Source: a virus
IMG/VR virus record: IMGVR_UViG_3300037189_023411
Span: 1-20,161 of that record
Strand: one strand, 5' to 3'
Length of the DNA: 20,161 nucleotides
This document shows, piece after piece, positions 1 through 17,282 of this stretch. How positions within the stretch are numbered: the first letter of the stretch is position 1; the number at the start of each line of letters is the position of its first letter. The notes under the pieces were generated by a model. That model made no database searches, was not told the DNA's origin, and saw nothing but the letters and a program-made list of their open reading frames with translations. The position numbers and the translations under genes are program-made.

Positions 1-1
1 G

Positions 2-292
2 AATAATTCTAACGATATGTACATTTACAATGCATTAAGAGCATGGGCTGATCTAATTTACAACCCACTAACTGGTCGTCAAGGTCTAAAAACTGATTAC
101 GCTGATGCTAGCATTCAAGTAACTCAGTTCAACCGAGCAGGTCTAATCTTTAGAGATTTTATGTTCTCGCCAGTATTCATTGGACCAAACAAAATGACAG
201 AAACCGTTCTTGATTACACAAGTGAAGGTATCTATAAATTAACTGTACAATTCACAGCTGATTCTTATACAGAATCACGAATTGGACAATAA
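2..292 (+). CDS. Tail tube protein (gp19-like), 3' part
   Basis: This is the C-terminal part of a structural protein, probably the tail tube subunit that stacks in hexameric rings inside the contractile sheath. The reading frame is open to the left edge of the window: codons before the ATG at 17 read N-N-S-N-D and continue the same fold. The true start is therefore probably outside and the gene is cut. The visible 96 residues have a helix rich in aromatic residues (YIYNALRAWADLIYN), then alternating beta strands (IQVTQFNRAGLIFRDFMFSPVFIG, then YKLTVQFTADSY). This resembles the last half of T4 gp19, where an 'I.G..P' turn is followed by a strand ending in an aromatic residue. It is followed after 18 bases by a plus-strand gene. 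A gp54/gp48-like or other tube-fold baseplate protein is possible. Confidence 0.6.
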   Translation, partial: NNSNDMYIYNALRAWADLIYNPLTGRQGLKTDYADASIQVTQFNRAGLIFRDFMFSPVFIGPNKMTETVLDYTSEGIYKLTVQFTADSYTESRIGQ

Positions 293-310: not shown

Positions 311-967
311 ATGGACATGTTCAACACTAAAGACAGACGTAATCCTTCAATGGATGATTACATGAATCCTAAGAAACCTAGTTTCGGAGGCCCAAATTCA
401 AAGAAAGACTTTGATACATCAAAAAGAGAAACATTGAAAGGCTACCAGCGAGTAATCGACAGAAATGCCGATTTTGAAGGTGGAAAATTCAATCATAATT
501 ATGACCCAACTTGGAAGGCAGTAACTCGTGACCTAATTTCAAGAACGGCAAAGAAAAAACCATTTGACCCAATGTACGCAAAACCAACAATCGCAACAGT
601 TGACGCTGTTGAAGAAGGAAAAATCCTTCGCTTTGAACAATTCGTTAACGAAGACTTCAACATGTTCGCTGAAGCAGAAGAAGAAATGCCAGCAAACGAT
701 GACATGCCAACTGATGACGATATGCCGTCTGACGAGCCAGTAATCGATGAAGAACAATTAGCCACTTTGATGGAAGAGTTCGGAGATGATCTTAAAGACA
801 TCATCGAAGACATCGCTGAAAAGATGGAAATGGCAAAAGAAGACATTTGCGATCTATTATGTGCAGCAGTTAAGAAACTTTGCACAGAAGAAAGCGATGA
901 GGACGAAAACCAGGACGATGACGATAACGCTATCGGAGACGACGAAAACCAGGACGAAAACGCATAA
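311..967 (+). CDS. Acidic virion-associated protein candidate with internal capsid-targeting-like motif
   Basis: I do not recognise this 218-residue protein as a family. It has two parts. Residues 1-104 are polar and slightly basic (many Lys, Arg, Asn, Pro). Residues 115-218 are very acidic, with Met-Pro-Asp repeats near 126-143, a helical stretch near 147-193 and an Asp/Glu/Asn tail. Between them, residues 105-115 read ILRFEQFVNED, closely similar to the N-termini of two other proteins in this window and to the T4 internal-protein leader MKTYQEFIAE. An acidic tail is also seen in T4 gp67, a prohead core protein, but I see no clear homology. The AAAGG at 305-309 is one base from the ATG at 311 and seven from the ATG at 317, so translation may begin at 317. 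It lies between a tube-like gene and another tagged gene, which supports a structural or head-core role. Function is inferred. Confidence 0.75.
   Translation: MDMFNTKDRRNPSMDDYMNPKKPSFGGPNSKKDFDTSKRETLKGYQRVIDRNADFEGGKFNHNYDPTWKAVTRDLISRTAKKKPFDPMYAKPTIATVDAVEEGKILRFEQFVNEDFNMFAEAEEEMPANDDMPTDDDMPSDEPVIDEEQLATLMEEFGDDLKDIIEDIAEKMEMAKEDICDLLCAAVKKLCTEESDEDENQDDDDNAIGDDENQDENA
902..957 (+). repeat. Direct repeat, 17 bp, two copies
   Basis: GACGAAAACCAGGACGA occurs at 902-918 and again at 941-957, in the same reading frame. It encodes DENQDD and DENQDE in the acidic C-terminal tail of the gene at 311-967. This looks like a small in-frame duplication that lengthened the tail. Confidence 0.85.
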
Positions 968-971
968 TTAG

Positions 972-1322
972 ATGATGCTCAAATTATTTGAACAATGGTT
1001 AGCTGAGGAAGATATGGCAACTTCTCCAAAAAAGGAGGAGCCGGCTAATTCTGCGAAACCTGGTTCTTATAAGCTTACAATCACAGCAGACGGAAAATCA
1101 TTTGAAGTTGAAGGAACTAGCGATAGCGAATTCACGACAAAAGAAATGATCTCGTTTAACGTGATAAACTCAACGAATCCTAGCATTAAAGGCGGTGCAA
1201 CCATTGCAATTTCGCCAAAAGCGGATAAAGATGGAGATTTCGATATTGTTGCAGTTAATGACAAGAATAAACCGGAAGATGCATTGATTTATTCAGGAAA
1301 GGTTGAGAAAGTTAAAGCATAA
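972..1322 (+). CDS. Small protein with N-terminal capsid-targeting-like leader; putative internal head protein
   Basis: The product has 116 residues. Its N-terminus, MMLKLFEQWLAEED, matches the pattern of T4 internal-protein leaders (MKTYQEFIAE, cut after the Glu by protease gp21 at L/I-x-E); here the site would be L-A-E after residue 12. A Lys/Pro/Ser-rich linker follows (residues 14-30), then a small beta-rich domain (about 31-116: YKLTITADGKSFEVEG and later strands) that I cannot assign. No transmembrane segment or catalytic motif is visible. The start is ATG-ATG at 972/975 without a clear Shine-Dalgarno sequence, 4 bases after the previous stop codon. A rho-independent terminator follows directly, so it is the last gene of the plus-strand unit. 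The leader assignment is inference from pattern similarity. The body could instead be a head decoration or core protein. Confidence 0.75.
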   Translation: MMLKLFEQWLAEEDMATSPKKEEPANSAKPGSYKLTITADGKSFEVEGTSDSEFTTKEMISFNVINSTNPSIKGGATIAISPKADKDGDFDIVAVNDKNKPEDALIYSGKVEKVKA

Positions 1323-10779: not shown

Positions 10780-11461
10780 TTGGAGTTGTCTTCTTTTTAG
10801 CGTCACCAGCTAATGCCTTCTTCATGGTTTTCTTGATAGCATCGACTGTTACGTTATTATTTATATAGTTTGATAGTTTGGTCAAAAACTCTTCCTTGTT
10901 CTTTGAATTCTGATACATCATCTTTAGTAGAGTTTTACTCGGCAGCTTAATTCGAACTGATAAGTTTAAATCGGTGTCCTCGAGTGAAAACATTCCAAAT
11001 AGATCTCCAGGATCGACATCTAACTGAAATTTTGATGGAGCTTGTACAATTTGAGCGGGCTGACCACTAAGAATAGGTTGAGGAGCTTGTGCCTTAATTT
11101 CATCTACAAATTCAGTAGGAATATCTTTTGAAACTTGTACATCTTCTGACAAAGAAGGAATGTAGTTAATTGATCTAATTTCATCAAACGATAATGGGTC
11201 TTGCCCATCAGTTATCATCATTAAATTAGATGAAACTAGGTCAGTATCGATCTGAGAACCATCTGACAGCATTGCGATCAATCTGCCATTTCGACCTGGA
11301 ACAACGTCCCTAACTTCAACGATCTTACCCATTTTGTTTGGATCGTTTGTTTTTATCCACTGAAACTTATTAGCCTGAAAACTTGATTTTACGGCAATCA
11401 GTGTGTCTATATCATATCCGTTCATAATTTTACGTAGTATTTTTTTGAGTTTAGTTAGCAT
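10772..11461 (-). CDS. Hypothetical protein coupled to the split DNA polymerase
   Basis: I do not recognise this 229-residue protein. Residues 35-85 may form a small SH3/KOW-like barrel (KMGKIVEVRDVVPGRNGRLIAMLSDG). Residues 115-145 are a Pro/Gln/Ala-rich linker (QAPQPILSGQPAQIV). The last 80 are helical and Lys-rich. No polymerase motifs B or C are present, so it is not the missing half of gp43. The ATG overlaps the gp43 fragment by 11 bases and is preceded by AGAAGAG, so it is translated together with it. It could be an accessory subunit of the polymerase or an unrelated passenger gene. Confidence 0.7.
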   Translation of the reverse strand: MLTKLKKILRKIMNGYDIDTLIAVKSSFQANKFQWIKTNDPNKMGKIVEVRDVVPGRNGRLIAMLSDGSQIDTDLVSSNLMMITDGQDPLSFDEIRSINYIPSLSEDVQVSKDIPTEFVDEIKAQAPQPILSGQPAQIVQAPSKFQLDVDPGDLFGMFSLEDTDLNLSVRIKLPSKTLLKMMYQNSKNKEEFLTKLSNYINNNVTVDAIKKTMKKALAGDAKKKTTPNE

Positions 11462-12824
11462 TTAATTGCTCTTCTAGTTTTTTCATTTCATTCTTGGTGT
11501 CAACGCGACCGTTGTACAAACGGGTTAAGATTGTGCGAGCAGCAGAATCAAACTTTTTAGTAAATAGTGTGTTGTTTTTTGTCAGAATTTGACCATCAGT
11601 TGGTTGCTGCTCAGGTTTAATTTTTCCCAAGTAAGCGTCCGGTGAAATATTAAACTGAATTTGAATGTTCGGATACATTGAGGCAAAGTCAAAACATGAC
11701 ACGTATTTGTAATATCCAGGTTCAGGTTTTGCAACGTACGCGCCATCATAGGTTGCATCCTCTTCAAGATCTCTTCGATCGTTTGCCATGTACAGGCCAC
11801 GCTCTAAGAATTCTCGGCACATTAACGTCTCTGTAATGAATACTGCCGAGAACACCTTTGAAACATCGACTCTTGCAAACTTAGAGATTGCAAAAGCGAC
11901 ATCAAGTAGGCCAAGCTTATCTTCTATCAATTTGATAAGAATAGTATCAATGATGTTGTACTTGATAAAATTCTCAACATCCTGTTGAGCTTCTAGCATC
12001 GTTGCGTATTCACTGTGTAGTTTGGTGGTTCCAAGCACAAGATTTGCAATATAATCTAACTTGTAATTTTCAACAACCTTATACGGCTTTGTGTTCATAA
12101 AAACTTCCATGTAATCCAGAAGTCCCATGTGAACTGGCATTTTAGCTTTACCGATCAATGTCTTAGATGGCATTTGCGCCATTGGATCAATTCCTAAATT
12201 CTTACAGCGATTGATCAAATACAACCAGTCAAATCCGATTACGTTCCAGCCTGTCAAGAATGGAATCTTTGGAAGCACTTTGTGAAAAAAGGTAGTCATC
12301 ATCTCTTCCTCTGTCTCAAAAAACAGATACTTAAGAGTGAAATCTTGGCCGTGAGCCTTAAAGTAATCGTTAACCTCATCTTGCATTTGCGAAATTACTG
12401 GATTCTCTAAGTTCTTCATGGTTGACATTACGAAACAGATATTATCCTCATTCACGAACGTTATTAAATTAACTGGCATCGCTGCTTTATTTGGATCCGG
12501 GAAGTCAGTTGATAACAACTGGATCTCAATATCGAGATAGTACTTTTTTGGACTATCATCAGAGTAGATGGAATCTAACTCGGTTTGGTCTAATCGAGTT
12601 TGGGTTAACTCTTCAAGTCTAAAACGACTTAACCACTTACCTTGGACTTTTTTTAGAAACTTTCCATCCCAGTTACGATTCTCGGTTGGGGTTGGAGTTA
12701 AGTTCCAGTTATAAAGATCATGCGGTAGAATCGGCTTCTTCATGAATCCAATTGTTCCATCTGGCTTATAATACGAAATGACTAACGTTGAGTCTTCCGT
12801 GTGAAATTCAGTACTTACAATCAT
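11451..12824 (-). CDS. 43: DNA polymerase gp43, N-terminal half (split gene)
   Basis: This is a family B DNA polymerase that ends early: 457 residues against 898 in T4. The N-terminal and 3'-5' exonuclease domains are complete: Exo I Asp98-Ile-Glu100, Exo II in GWNVIGFD, Exo III in YNIID. The palm begins with motif A (FDFASMYPNI, catalytic Asp379) and NISP follows as in T4. The protein stops about 77 residues after motif A, within the fingers region, before motif B (KxxxNSxYG) and motif C (YGDTDS). The final residues (TKNEMKKLEEQLNAN) end at an ordinary stop codon that overlaps the next gene, without intein-like residues. The remaining half is not in this window, so the enzyme is probably assembled from two polypeptides, as described for some Aeromonas T4-like phages. 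Confidence 0.93.
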   Translation of the reverse strand: MIVSTEFHTEDSTLVISYYKPDGTIGFMKKPILPHDLYNWNLTPTPTENRNWDGKFLKKVQGKWLSRFRLEELTQTRLDQTELDSIYSDDSPKKYYLDIEIQLLSTDFPDPNKAAMPVNLITFVNEDNICFVMSTMKNLENPVISQMQDEVNDYFKAHGQDFTLKYLFFETEEEMMTTFFHKVLPKIPFLTGWNVIGFDWLYLINRCKNLGIDPMAQMPSKTLIGKAKMPVHMGLLDYMEVFMNTKPYKVVENYKLDYIANLVLGTTKLHSEYATMLEAQQDVENFIKYNIIDTILIKLIEDKLGLLDVAFAISKFARVDVSKVFSAVFITETLMCREFLERGLYMANDRRDLEEDATYDGAYVAKPEPGYYKYVSCFDFASMYPNIQIQFNISPDAYLGKIKPEQQPTDGQILTKNNTLFTKKFDSAARTILTRLYNGRVDTKNEMKKLEEQLNAN

Positions 12825-13487: not shown

Positions 13488-16400
13488 ATGGCAGAAAAAT
13501 TAAATCTGAACCGATTCAAGTCAAGCGGTGTTTACACGGTCGAAATCGACGAAAGCACTAATCTCAGCTTACCTTTATCGACAGGCAGACTCGTAATAGG
13601 ATCCAGCAAAAAAGGACCTATCAACTCAGTAGTACTAATTAACGACTTACGTTCATTAACCGCAGTATACGGAGAAAATGATTCTAAACTAGAAAAGAAC
13701 GGAAGCTTCTTTCATAGAACGATAGAAGTAGCATTGAGACAAGGCCCAGTTTACGCTTTGAATCTTTTACCGGTTGCAGATACTGATGTTGCATACTTTA
13801 CAACATTTAATACTGAATCGGCATCAAATAATTCAAATTGGGCGGCTAATCTTTATCAAGATAGTCTTTCACATTTCTACAATACTCAGAAACTATGGTT
13901 TGCTGATGTTGATGCGGTTAACAAATACAAAAACATTCAGTTAGGAGATTCTTTCCCAGCTACTGGTACAGCGGATCGTGATGCTAATAAGCTATTAAGC
14001 TTAGTAAACCTTTCTAAGAAAGCAGTGACTGCATGGGTTAGAGTAGCCGATACTACCGGATATGATATTAAAGTTAAGGAATACTACAAGCTTCTAGGAG
14101 AAAAAGTAGAAATTCCTGAATTTTTACACCCAGACGACTACGTTTCTGACTACTTTGTCGAAATCGCAGTAGTTGAAGGCGATTGGACCGATTACATCAG
14201 ACTTTCTAAAGACCCAATTTACGGGCAGTTCTTTAATCCATCAGGTATTGAACTCGCTAAGATGAACGATTTCCTTTCACTTAGAGAAATTTCAGTAATA
14301 AACCGTACAATTGGAGCAATGATCCCAGATTTCAGAGATTTAACTGGAGCAGTCTCTTCAATTGACACATTATTCAACAGAAAATTCAGCCAGTGCGGAG
14401 TATTTTGTGCAATCGACTACAAGAAAGTTGACATGATCGACTTAACTAATTCTACTTTTGATAGCGGTAGCTCAACCGAGCCGATCGCAGAACAACGAAT
14501 TGACTTAGTAGGTTACGGTTTTGACGAACTTAACACGACTGACAATACTAAACAACTTTACACAGTAGATAACGGAATCAGTACAGTTGATCCAGTTGCT
14601 CTGATCGACGTATTAAGTTACAGAAAATCGGCTGGCTACGAGTATTATTTCGCATTGGATAACGTTGATTACAATTCAACTTATGCCGCTGGCGAAACAT
14701 ACACAGTTCAAAAGCTTTCAGGTCCATCAAATTTACCAACTGGCGACAAGTACATTGTTGCAACTATCGGAAGTAAATTGTATAACGCATGGGCAAATGG
14801 ATTCATCAAAACTGGAGATACTCTACACTACTTAGCTGCTCCATCTAGCACGCCTACTACTCTTTACTTATCAACCGATGGCTTAGTCAAAACTCAAAGC
14901 ACCGGACAAATCAAGTACATCGAGTTTTACGCTTACCAAGATGCAGCATTCCAAAATCAAGTTGACGTTGAGTACATAACCGACGGAGCTGTTAGCCCGG
15001 CACCGGCATACTTGCACATCAAATCAACTAACACTACTCAATTCAAAGCAGATTTCGATTTGACTGATTCTAACTACTTCATCACTACTGGAGCCAGCAA
15101 CTACAAGTTCTTCTCTCCAAATCAAGTGGTATTTACGTTAAATCCTTCACTTTACGGAAACGTAGCTAAGAAAGAAACTGCAAATACTGGATACACATAC
15201 GATTCAGCTAAGAGAACTCTAGTAGATTCATTCTTTAAAGTCGGTCAATGGGTTAAAGCTGGAATAGTCAAAGATGCAAATGGCGACCAAGTAATTCGTA
15301 ATCGTGCACTAAGAATTAAGTCAGTTTACTCTCAACTAGTTACTGTAAACTACGGACCTTCTAGCTTACCGGTTAAGACTCTAAAATACACAATCACAGT
15401 CGATACGGCTGCTGATTCAAACATTACAGGCATTGACATTACGCCAGCTTCATTAGCTGGAAATGCAGGCCTTAGCGTTTACAAAGGAATCAAAAACTAC
15501 GTAACTGATCTTAGAGGTTTCTACGTACCTGCAATGCAAGTTGATGAAAGCGGATTGTATCCTAACGGAACAGCTGAGCGTCAAAATACTATCTTGGACT
15601 ACATGTTCAACGATACTAACATTGCTTCTACACTAGCCGATAATGAAACATTAGACTATCGTTACATCATCGATTCTTATGAAGGTCAAATTTGGAGCGC
15701 GTCTAAGCAGCAACTTGCTCAGCTTGCAGCAAATCACGGAAAAGCCTTAGCTATCCTAAATGCTCCATCCTTTGCACAATATGAGAAATCAATTGATCCA
15801 AGCTTCATTGATGTTAACACAAACCTAGTATCGGCTGAATACATTTCAACTGGTGGTAATTTATCATCTAATCCATCTTACACATTTGGATTTGCAACAG
15901 GAGAGAAAAACGGTATTTCGATTGCATCTTATGCTGCATACTTCATGCCTAACTTAGTAATCTTTGAAGGCGGTAGAAATAAATCAATTCCACCAGCATC
16001 ATACGTTGCAAACACGTACATGAAGAAATACAGTAGCGGTAATACTTTCTCAATCGTAGCAGGTAAAAGAGGTATCATTACTGAACCTGAAATTACAGGA
16101 GTTGAATACGACTTAACTAATGACGACAGAGACTTCTTGGAACCAGCAGGTTTCAACTTGATCGTTAGACGTAGAGGTTTCGGTGTTATGATTTTCTCAA
16201 ACAACACCGGATACCAAAGAGTTAAATCAGCGCTGAACAACGTTCACGTAAGAGAAGCCTTAGTAACGATTGAAAGAGACATTGAACGTATCTTATTGAA
16301 CTTCCTATTTGATTTCAACGATACTACGACTAGATTAAGAGTTAAGACTCTCGTTAAGAACTACTTAACTGCGGTTCAAGACGCTAGAGGTATCTCAACA

Positions 16401-16580
16401 TTTGACGTAGTCTTTGATGATTCAAATAACGGAACTGAAGTTCTTGAAAATAATGCAGGTATCATCGATATTATCGTTGACTTCCCAAGAGGTATTCACA
16501 AGTTCATCAACCGTATCACAATCACAAGAGCTGGAGGTCAATTGGCTTCTCAATCTACTGGATTTACACCATCGTTCTAA
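13488..16580 (+). CDS. 18: Tail sheath protein (gp18-like), enlarged
   Basis: This protein forms the contractile sheath around the tail tube. The N-terminal region (about 10-105: SSGVYTVEIDES, LVIGSSKKGPIN, FHRTIEVALRQGPVYALNLLPV) and the C-terminal 250 residues (GFGVMIFSNNTGYQRV, NNVHVREALVTIERDIERILLNF, IDIIVDFPRGIHKFINRI) fit sheath proteins, in which the terminal arms link neighbours. At 1030 residues it is far longer than T4 gp18 (659). The extra length appears to be a beta-rich, Ser/Thr/Tyr-rich part near residues 385-665, probably exposed on the sheath surface. It starts with ATG, without a strong Shine-Dalgarno sequence, downstream of two late-promoter-like boxes. It is the only plus-strand gene between two minus-strand blocks and ends at a terminator; a tube gene does not follow it as in T4. 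Confidence 0.93.
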   Translation: MAEKLNLNRFKSSGVYTVEIDESTNLSLPLSTGRLVIGSSKKGPINSVVLINDLRSLTAVYGENDSKLEKNGSFFHRTIEVALRQGPVYALNLLPVADTDVAYFTTFNTESASNNSNWAANLYQDSLSHFYNTQKLWFADVDAVNKYKNIQLGDSFPATGTADRDANKLLSLVNLSKKAVTAWVRVADTTGYDIKVKEYYKLLGEKVEIPEFLHPDDYVSDYFVEIAVVEGDWTDYIRLSKDPIYGQFFNPSGIELAKMNDFLSLREISVINRTIGAMIPDFRDLTGAVSSIDTLFNRKFSQCGVFCAIDYKKVDMIDLTNSTFDSGSSTEPIAEQRIDLVGYGFDELNTTDNTKQLYTVDNGISTVDPVALIDVLSYRKSAGYEYYFALDNVDYNSTYAAGETYTVQKLSGPSNLPTGDKYIVATIGSKLYNAWANGFIKTGDTLHYLAAPSSTPTTLYLSTDGLVKTQSTGQIKYIEFYAYQDAAFQNQVDVEYITDGAVSPAPAYLHIKSTNTTQFKADFDLTDSNYFITTGASNYKFFSPNQVVFTLNPSLYGNVAKKETANTGYTYDSAKRTLVDSFFKVGQWVKAGIVKDANGDQVIRNRALRIKSVYSQLVTVNYGPSSLPVKTLKYTITVDTAADSNITGIDITPASLAGNAGLSVYKGIKNYVTDLRGFYVPAMQVDESGLYPNGTAERQNTILDYMFNDTNIASTLADNETLDYRYIIDSYEGQIWSASKQQLAQLAANHGKALAILNAPSFAQYEKSIDPSFIDVNTNLVSAEYISTGGNLSSNPSYTFGFATGEKNGISIASYAAYFMPNLVIFEGGRNKSIPPASYVANTYMKKYSSGNTFSIVAGKRGIITEPEITGVEYDLTNDDRDFLEPAGFNLIVRRRGFGVMIFSNNTGYQRVKSALNNVHVREALVTIERDIERILLNFLFDFNDTTTRLRVKTLVKNYLTAVQDARGISTFDVVFDDSNNGTEVLENNAGIIDIIVDFPRGIHKFINRITITRAGGQLASQSTGFTPSF

Positions 16581-16682: not shown

Positions 16683-17282
16683 TTAGTCTTCAACTGGACC
16701 TAAAATTTCCTCAACTACTCGAATCGTGTCGGTCGAATCGTTGTGTAAAATTCCAATTCCTCCAGCCTTAGTCCATTTTTCTAATTTTCTATCGAAATCA
16801 TCGATTAGAATAGGTTCTTTATCTAATAGGGTTTTTGCAGGCTCAACGTAATCATGCTTGTGATTAGCTAAGATGAACCGTGTATCCTTTGTGAAATTCG
16901 CAGGATCCTTTACTGGATCTTGGTCAATTCCCAAATGGCGCTTTACCCATTTAGCTTTTCCTGTAAAACAGCCAGGGTGTTTACTCGGAGAGGACAGAAT
17001 TATCGGATCGTATCTTTTAAGATAGTCCCATAGCTCTCGACCGTCTTTCATCCATTGTAGATTTTCCCAGAAGGCCTCGCCTAATTCATCGATTAACGGC
17101 CATAACGAATCCTTACCGTGAGCCGTTTCATAGGCTTTAGGAGAAAGTTTTTCAGTATTGCTCGGAAGCTCAATAAATCCTCTGTCGAAATCAACCAGAA
17201 CTCCGTCAAGATCACAAAAGATCCTGAAATCGTTTGATTTTTCCTCGTTCACGAATTGCGCGAAACTTTTAAGATTGCTCAT
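16683..17282 (-). CDS. HAD-superfamily 5'(3')-deoxyribonucleotidase-like phosphatase with N-terminal capsid-targeting-like motif
   Basis: The 199-residue protein has the HAD phosphatase core: motif I FCDLDGVLVDFD (nucleophile Asp24, acid/base Asp26), motif II near Ser97-Ser98 (IILSSPS), Lys109, and motif III Asp161-Asp162 (PILIDDFDRKLEKW). The pattern DLDGVLVDF and the helical cap after it fit the 5'(3')-deoxyribonucleotidase family, which removes phosphate from dNMPs; the substrate is inferred. Before the domain begins at about residue 19, residues 4-14 read LKSFAQFVNEE, the same motif as in the two left-end genes. No tag is expected in a soluble HAD enzyme. The start overlaps the GroES gene by 14 bases, so it is coupled to it, and it is the last gene of this leftward group, which also contains gp32. 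Confidence 0.88.
   Translation of the reverse strand: MSNLKSFAQFVNEEKSNDFRIFCDLDGVLVDFDRGFIELPSNTEKLSPKAYETAHGKDSLWPLIDELGEAFWENLQWMKDGRELWDYLKRYDPIILSSPSKHPGCFTGKAKWVKRHLGIDQDPVKDPANFTKDTRFILANHKHDYVEPAKTLLDKEPILIDDFDRKLEKWTKAGGIGILHNDSTDTIRVVEEILGPVED

Follow-up and report, generated by a model that had tools for sequence, protein, structure and literature searches.

The three internal proteins (IPs) of phage T4 have been reported to act as injected inhibitors of host restriction systems; they have only their leader in common and are otherwise without mutual homology, and at least 10 IPs are reported among T4 relatives (PMC12373910). As described for T4 mutants, the first 10 residues of IPIII are enough for packaging, the aromatic residues 4 and 7 govern targeting, residues 8 and 10 govern processing, and the two functions are separable, with gp21 cleaving after L/I-x-E (PMC9026906). 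The ejection proteins of the giant Salmonella phage SPN3US and of phiKZ-like phages offer a second described system, in which several head propeptides are cut after Glu by a gp21-related protease; these inner-head propeptides are far longer than the 10-20 residues of T4, several exceeding 100, and the phiKZ site reads S/A-x-E (PMC5694885, PMC9026906). The virus group described here resembles the T4 IPs in a propeptide-like N-terminus, about 10 residues long, that has its aromatics at 4 and 7 and an I/L/V-x-E site, in fast-changing bodies that occupy an accessory slot, and in a gp21-type protease; it would share Glu-directed propeptides with the phiKZ-like system and differs from it in the short tag (about 11 residues) and the [LIV]-x-E site.

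The window, the whole stretch of DNA analysed, is a virus record of 20,161 bases. It is a fragment, since its start lies inside a tail tube gene whose 3' end occupies 1..292 (+; phrog_45 tail tube, with a full 194-aa copy in the 180-kb relative G001).

A small gene with a T4-like N-terminal tag

The open reading frame (ORF) at 972..1322 (+) translates to MMLKLFEQWLAEEDMATSPKKEEP..., just as the first-pass annotation had read it, and encodes a propeptide-like tag, a linker and an all-beta domain. Translation most likely begins at the second ATG (975), because in 12 of 14 related IMG/VR loci (L004-L015) the equivalent Met is the first residue, reading MIKLFEQWLAE without an in-frame start farther upstream; the two remaining loci, L002 and L003, match the window exactly. 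The alignment query gave 18 loci, 14 of them on the same contigs. Judged from these sequences, the product probably begins MLKLFEQWLAE (975..1007, +; matrix score 21.9), and the predicted protease cut would fall after Glu11 counted from 975 (nt 1007), the residue first numbered Glu12, so that the mature product would begin EDMATSPK... at residue 12.

The T4 ipII and ipIII ORFs start MKTYQEFIAE, and alignment places K-L-F-E-Q-W-L-A-E of the window over K-T-Y-Q-E-F-I-A-E of T4, such that F5, W8, L9 and E11 correspond to the T4 determinants 4, 7, 8 and 10. The tag therefore has an aromatic-x-x-aromatic pair near the N-terminus, with L/I-x-E just after it, which occurs in this gene and its relatives as L-A-E, I-E-E and L-S-E. 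Across eight aligned sequences, window included, M1 and the nine consecutive residues K3-E11 are invariant, F and W among them, and further relatives have F/Y and W. Tags of farther relatives, such as KLFEQWIEE and KLYEQWLSE, retain all four determinant positions, the changes being at the free position 9, of one aromatic for another, or between L and I.

Behind the tag, residues 12-30 (1008..1064, +) form a variable and probably disordered linker: 16 of its 19 columns vary and 3 are invariant in the same eight sequences, its length varies among relatives, and the AlphaFold2 model has pLDDT <50 over nearly all of residues 1-28, including 11-28. Residues 31-115 (1065..1319, +) make up an all-beta body without a recognised fold, in which the model places six beta strands (residues 31-114, mostly at about 90 pLDDT), so the linker and small beta domain proposed from the sequence are backed by the model. 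The product gave no PHROG match, no Pfam match over cut-off, no PADLOC match and no match at E 1 in the annotated phage collection; in the viral library at E <0.001 it matched only A0A6J5SU90, from an uncultured relative, with 56% identity. The solved-fold search with the body found nothing convincing (Foldseek best E 0.15), and the best structural hit, to Sm-type proteins, has a middling Z of 4.7. The basic mature part typical of T4 IPs is absent: IPII and IPIII have pI 9.6 and 9.7, whereas the body after the tag is acidic (pI 4.8, net -4). By PHROG and Pfam it has no detectable homology to them, though Ip1-3 are themselves unrelated to one another beyond the leader.

The tag recurs at the N-termini of unrelated proteins

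We derived a position matrix from 17 seed tags of G001 and then froze it, counting as a hit any score of >=14 in the first 32 residues; the matrix thus comes from one genome, and ORFs were called mechanically. Two N-terminal tags stand out in the window, those of the 972 gene (21.9) and of a nucleotidase gene at 16683-17282 (22.4), the next best of 23 ORFs scoring 5.3; these two scores are not independent, since the seeds include G001 orthologues of both genes. Both of the other window proteins that had been credited with the motif exist, but only the nucleotidase carries it N-terminally, the copy in the acidic protein at 311-967 being internal. The claim that these copies make chance less likely is weak within the window alone (2/23 N-termini vs 1/151 internal windows, p = 0.046) and decisive across relatives: in G007, 21 of 346 ORFs score against 2 of 1894 internal windows (Fisher p = 1e-15), with p = 1e-5 when only the 8 proteins non-homologous to G001 tagged proteins are counted. 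G011 gives 4/62 ORFs vs 0/281 internal windows, and G001 itself 18/228 vs 3/1277, a circular count because the seeds come from that genome. Over ten group contigs the matrix picks out 78 of 1155 ORFs, counts that are not independent because the contigs share genes.

Among thirteen other phages, 8 of 3724 ORFs score. All eight belong to T4 (3/282), KVP40 (3/414) and P-SSM2 (2/352; together 8/1048), the three T4 hits being ipII, ipIII and the hypothetical 61.1; the other ten (immuto, Cellulophaga, PTm1, Melnitz, PAU, MaF61, SPO1, HTVC008M, RM378 and CBB) give 0/2676, a set that was grouped once nine of the ten were known to score zero. The T4 ORF at 73591, which we take to be IPI, starts MKTFKEFTSTTTPVSTITEA and falls below the matrix threshold. 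T4 has three IPs; by contrast, strict N-terminal tags number 18 in a 180-kb genome of the group and 21 in a 271-kb one.

Simple patterns were also applied. The genome-wide scan suggested by the first-pass annotation, with [LK]xFxQ[FW][VL][NA]E, proved too narrow, finding 3/228 N-termini in G001. Pattern B, [KR]x[FY]xx[FW][ILV]xE, was devised with the G001 tags already known and finds 8/228 N-termini vs 1/1100 internal windows there, and 2/23 vs 0/126 in the window. Pattern C, which permits Leu at position 4, is near the shuffled rate in most other phages and higher in immuto and Melnitz; we base our conclusions on the frozen matrix together with patterns A and B, not on pattern C.

The tag sits on many unrelated bodies. 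The 56 ORFs of G000-G005 scoring >=10 form 25 families whose bodies have no mutual match at E 1e-3, two of the families (G001 120196 and G003 70955) being likely false hits. An exact DNA scan for KLFEQWLAE returned 21 contigs, of which the two new to earlier scans were inspected: L211 has the nonamer on the same syntenic gene, and in L219 it stands at the front of a 355-aa protein of unrelated sequence and different gene surroundings, beside two further tagged ORFs. Among 82 distinct tags scoring >=12, the commonest residue at position 9 is N (26/82) and the commonest just past the tag is S (15/82).

Prohead protease and capsid genes in relatives

The gp21-type protease that the first-pass annotation proposed to look for was found: Peptidase_S77 (the gp21 family) scores over cut-off in 5/6 relatives, among them G003 and G006, both of which have an identical 972 gene, and the sixth, G005, starts about 1.9 kb before its 972-type gene, so that the S77 region lies outside the contig. 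It is also over cut-off in 5/6 further contigs, three of them of one 271-kb type. In G001 the S77 match is a 663-aa ORF, a PHROG head maturation protease, which adjoins the major head protein 5-7 kb upstream of the tagged gene; in the relatives the gp21-type protease and a T4-type capsid gene lie 3-7 kb upstream in the same gene cluster. The protease thus occurs in the same virus as the tag in relatives, the 20-kb window itself being without S77.

T4 gp23 is cut at FLTE-AEIGG. In 7/7 group genomes the capsid protein has a conserved [IL]-N-E-[SA] about 50 residues in, which we take as the end of a propeptide; as it resembles the commonest tag ending, a single protease would seem to recognise both. 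S77 is not sufficient for the tag: CBB, PTm1, PAU, immuto, Melnitz, HTVC008M and RM378 have S77 and score 0 at threshold, and Lak-B1 has S77 without a tag-pattern match. For CBB a table of 55 virion proteins is published (PMC5259590), and this proteome was considered as a blind test of the tag; it was uninformative, CBB having no ORF at threshold. Its S77 gene with zero tags indicates that the protease alone does not imply tags.

We consider it probable that the tag is a T4-type capsid-targeting propeptide, used genome-wide to load 18-21 (about twenty) clearly tagged, non-homologous proteins, some of them enzymes. From the tag's sequence, conservation, modularity and N-terminal enrichment, together with the nearby protease and capsid genes in relatives, we infer docking, cleavage, packaging and injection in the following form. 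The first 11 residues would be the propeptide; late in infection its two aromatics would dock the protein on the prohead scaffold core, the gp21-type (S77) prohead protease would cut after [LIV]-x-E and release the small beta protein within the head, and this protein would probably enter the next host together with the DNA. About twenty virus proteins without mutual homology would then share this one propeptide as their general code for loading. The T4-like targeting and protease site proposed at the outset is borne out by the match of the four T4 determinants, by retention of the tag while the body changes, by the S77 and capsid genes of relatives and by the genome-wide N-terminal enrichment; the initial interpretation as a whole is supported in part, its internal head protein, cleavage and injection being predicted, and the acidic body is unlike T4 IPII and IPIII. 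The observation at 972 was real, and larger than first noted.

An exchangeable slot behind an acidic protein

Between the tail tube gene and the tagged gene lies an acidic protein gene (311..967, +; 32 related loci) with an internal copy of the motif, ILRFEQFVNE, at residues 105-114 (623..652, +; internal matrix score 22.9). The protein halves at this motif into a basic part (pI 9.3, net +4) and an acidic part (pI 4.1, net -37). The motif is present in 22/23 relatives examined of the 32 related loci, the remaining one, L207, stopping before it; the site scores in nine of ten group contigs scanned, window included, and accounts for nine of the 16 internal matrix hits in the group. The window copy has no PHROG or Pfam match and the G001 copy no PHROG match. 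By analogy the product is a candidate prohead-core protein of the T4 gp67/gp68 kind, possibly cut into its basic and acidic parts.

With the acidic upstream gene as query, the slot survey gave 32 loci, of which 23 were examined and, with the window, make 24 copies. The following gene is tagged in 15/24 copies, a tagged following gene is missing in 7/24 (L206 plus six loci that share a single 271-kb type), and the contig ends in 2/24. In L175-L177 (L192-type) the slot body is 27% identical to the query, whereas the upstream protein is 74% identical; in L195-L197 and L205 the body or linker of the slot gene differs. A fixed leader with exchangeable bodies in a slot matches what is reported for T4 IPs. 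The small body is likely a fast-evolving accessory protein (anti-host or anti-defence), a role suggested by the behaviour of the slot only, and what it might do after delivery is a guess.

The slot also bears on whether the product leaves the head at all. It could instead be a prohead-core or head-assembly component that is docked and cut but works in assembly and is not delivered, an alternative that has targeting and cleavage in common with propeptide-directed delivery, so that the odds of the two overlap, and which we regard as possible though rather unlikely. Its position directly after the acidic core-like and tail tube genes, 5-7 kb downstream of S77 in G001, fits such a role, as do related motifs on other proteins of the head gene cluster; but the absence of a tagged gene from the slot in those 7/24 copies, six of one 271-kb type, means that it is not needed for assembly there, and the divergence of the L175-L177 body beside a well-conserved upstream protein likewise tells against an assembly function.

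Tagged enzymes and retention of the tag in orthologues

Delivery by the propeptide would extend to proteins with recognisable domains. The HAD-type 5'-deoxyribonucleotidase of the window (16683..17282, -; phrog_2643 from residue 17) starts MSNLKSFAQFVNEEK, its tag being MSNLKSFAQFVNE (17244..17282, -), and it is, with the 972 ORF, the only protein of the window with an N-terminal tag. The determinants of this tag are retained in the G007 and G008 orthologues. The enzyme matches 61 phage records, and 31 of the best 40 align only from residue 18-21 on; for a tagged MoxR-type AAA ATPase, the best 40 of 637 homologues align only from residue 96 or later. Since these homologues align only behind it, the tag is sequence added ahead of known domains.

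Orthologues were then compared by searching the post-tag part of the G001 tagged proteins in other genomes and looking for the aromatic pair in the first 45 residues. G007 has orthologues of 15/21 G001 tagged proteins, and [FY]xx[FW] is retained in all 15, compared with 24/112 among the untagged proteins' orthologues; 8/15 vs 1/112 have the full motif, the remaining 7/15 having lost the full cleavage motif and kept the aromatics. In G008 the aromatic pair is found in 5/6 vs 12/56 untagged and the full motif in 2/6 vs 1/56, and in G011 the aromatic pair and the full motif alike give 1/1 vs 0/8. The aromatics thus outlast the cleavage site, in keeping with the separable targeting and processing of T4; part of the cargo may therefore escape cleavage or be cleaved at another site.

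Most proteins scanned for families have no known family. Those that pass the matrix with a family match are the HAD-type 5'-nucleotidase, the MoxR-type AAA ATPase, a NUDIX protein, a VanY protein and a phage lysozyme; a protein with an Acb1 / 2_5_RNA_ligase2 match and a nucleotidyltransferase (NTP_transf_2) pass the matrix with family matches below the curated cut-off. The tag of a PAP2 protein scores 13.9, slightly below threshold, and leaders picked out by eye with the aromatic pair but a score <8 head a DUF2201 metallopeptidase that adjoins the ATPase, a YkuD protein and a DUF5824 protein. These sub-cut-off annotations are not relied on, nor is an ADP-ribosyltransferase-like assignment of G001 132814, for which there is only a phrog_5470 match at E 0.025. 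Many tagged proteins of the group are larger than T4 IPs and, unlike them, some are recognisable enzymes.

We read the enzymes as cargo because their tags are N-terminal, modular and protease-site-like. The refuting case named by the first-pass annotation, a random scatter of the motif over non-structural proteins, applies in part, in that the tagged set includes the nucleotidase, the AAA ATPase and the NUDIX protein. Counting against capsid loading, some of the tagged enzymes have plausible cytoplasmic jobs. The nucleotide metabolism enzymes and the ATPase would suit a tag that docks elsewhere, in a phage replication compartment, at the host membrane or on a protein complex, with its resemblance to T4 convergent, but we hold this to be improbable: it leaves unexplained both the [LIV]-x-E end with its likeness to the capsid [IL]-N-E-[SA] and the internal motif in the acidic protein of the head gene cluster. 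A short N-terminal likeness without function, from chance or shared ancestry, could be entertained for only ten residues and p = 0.046 inside the window, but is very improbable given the enrichment in relatives on non-homologous bodies, the zero reversed-pattern matches in LR756500 and the retention of the motif in orthologues.

Occurrence in a huge phage and reach of the proposed code

In LR756500, a 462-kb uncultured phage, the pattern M-K-x-[hydrophobic]-x-x-[FY]-x-x-F-[hydrophobic]-x-E has 16 start-codon matches vs 0 when reversed; the same pattern gives 5 matches in LR756502 and 0 in Lak-B1, PTm1, PAU and CBB. LR756500 has an S77 match over cut-off, and in 200 kb of it 14/249 ORFs score >=12 vs 1/1379 internal windows; at least 2 of its tagged bodies look alike, and these counts are of ORFs, not of homology-sorted families. 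LR756502 shows no enrichment in 100 kb at score >=12 (2/125 N-termini vs 2/689 internal windows), and 50 kb of Lak-B1 has 0 matrix hits, two results that count against a wide spread of the tag in huge phages.

It is an even call, in our judgement, whether one short cleavable N-terminal code serves to head-load about twenty or more unrelated proteins both in the whole group of uncultured T4-like phages, 180-270 kb in size, and in remote huge phages like LR756500, with cargo that includes enzymes (the MoxR-type ATPase, nucleotidase, NUDIX protein, lysozyme, VanY-type peptidase and Acb1-like RNA-ligase-fold protein). On the best-supported account, a T4-type propeptide used genome-wide, T4 supplies the known mechanism; new are its breadth, the enzyme cargo and the occurrence in an uncultured group and a huge phage. 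Among the openly accessible journal papers listed in the literature searches, no title or abstract beginning mentions genome-wide deployment of this kind beyond the T-even and phiKZ-like phages. If true, the virion would deliver proteins as a vehicle, and its load could be deduced from the genome sequence; a tag recognisable from sequence in uncultured and huge phages would make a virus's injected arsenal predictable, and many proteins annotated without function would become testable candidates for counter-defence or entry.

Further observations

T4 gene 61.1 (NC_000866 18966-19130) starts MKTFKEFIKED and scores 20.5, compared with 18.0 for ipII and ipIII, and its product is, going by this start, a possible unrecognised head protein; '61.1' is absent from the main text of PMC5694885, and 'gp61.1' was not found among the matches listed in the literature search. 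A G007 protein at 196983-197534 is tagged and has a sub-cut-off match to Acb1 (anti-CBASS) together with a phrog_755 RNA ligase match at 2e-10, making it a candidate pre-packaged counter-defence enzyme.

Four ORFs of Flavobacterium phage immuto (MW353176; 1803, 103762, 117587 and 118588) have NFDLKKFLVENKL, or a near variant of it, as their N-terminal peptide. Like the tags of the group, this repeated peptide ends in F-L-x-E and accompanies an S77 protease; unlike them, it has Leu in place of the first aromatic, and it may be a targeting tag of that lineage's own. The name 'immuto' was not found among the matches listed in the literature search. In Flavobacterium phage MaF61 there is neither an S77 match nor a hit by pattern A, pattern B or the matrix. 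The nucleotidases of Melnitz, immuto and HTVC008M have a short leader with a possible I/L-x-E (INE, LLLEE, LVQE) and no aromatic pair.

Upstream of the tail tube gene, the head gene cluster (L211, L174, L175, G004 19692, G002 66208) has a small tagged protein with repeats such as LPKGKGSK, which in L211 starts SVLNYSQFLLEKK; the gene after it has a related motif ahead of a conserved body, ENS[LI]KDLVGK. A second internal motif, FxxFV[NT]ECW, recurs in four genomes (G001 108191, at residue 126; G002 108266; G003 48042; G007 246301) and is possibly a further internal protease site.

The tail sheath gene of the window (13488-16580, +) is long (1030 aa), lies away from the tail tube gene and is on the strand opposite to the surrounding replication genes. 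A 457-aa ORF at 11451-12824 (-) resembles the N-terminal half of DNA polymerase; its G001 counterpart is at 50081-51457 (+), some 50 kb from an ORF with the sequence INSFYGAFGN at 100564-102192 (+). A split gp43 occurs in some T4-like phages, and the DNA polymerase looks split in the window and G001 as well.
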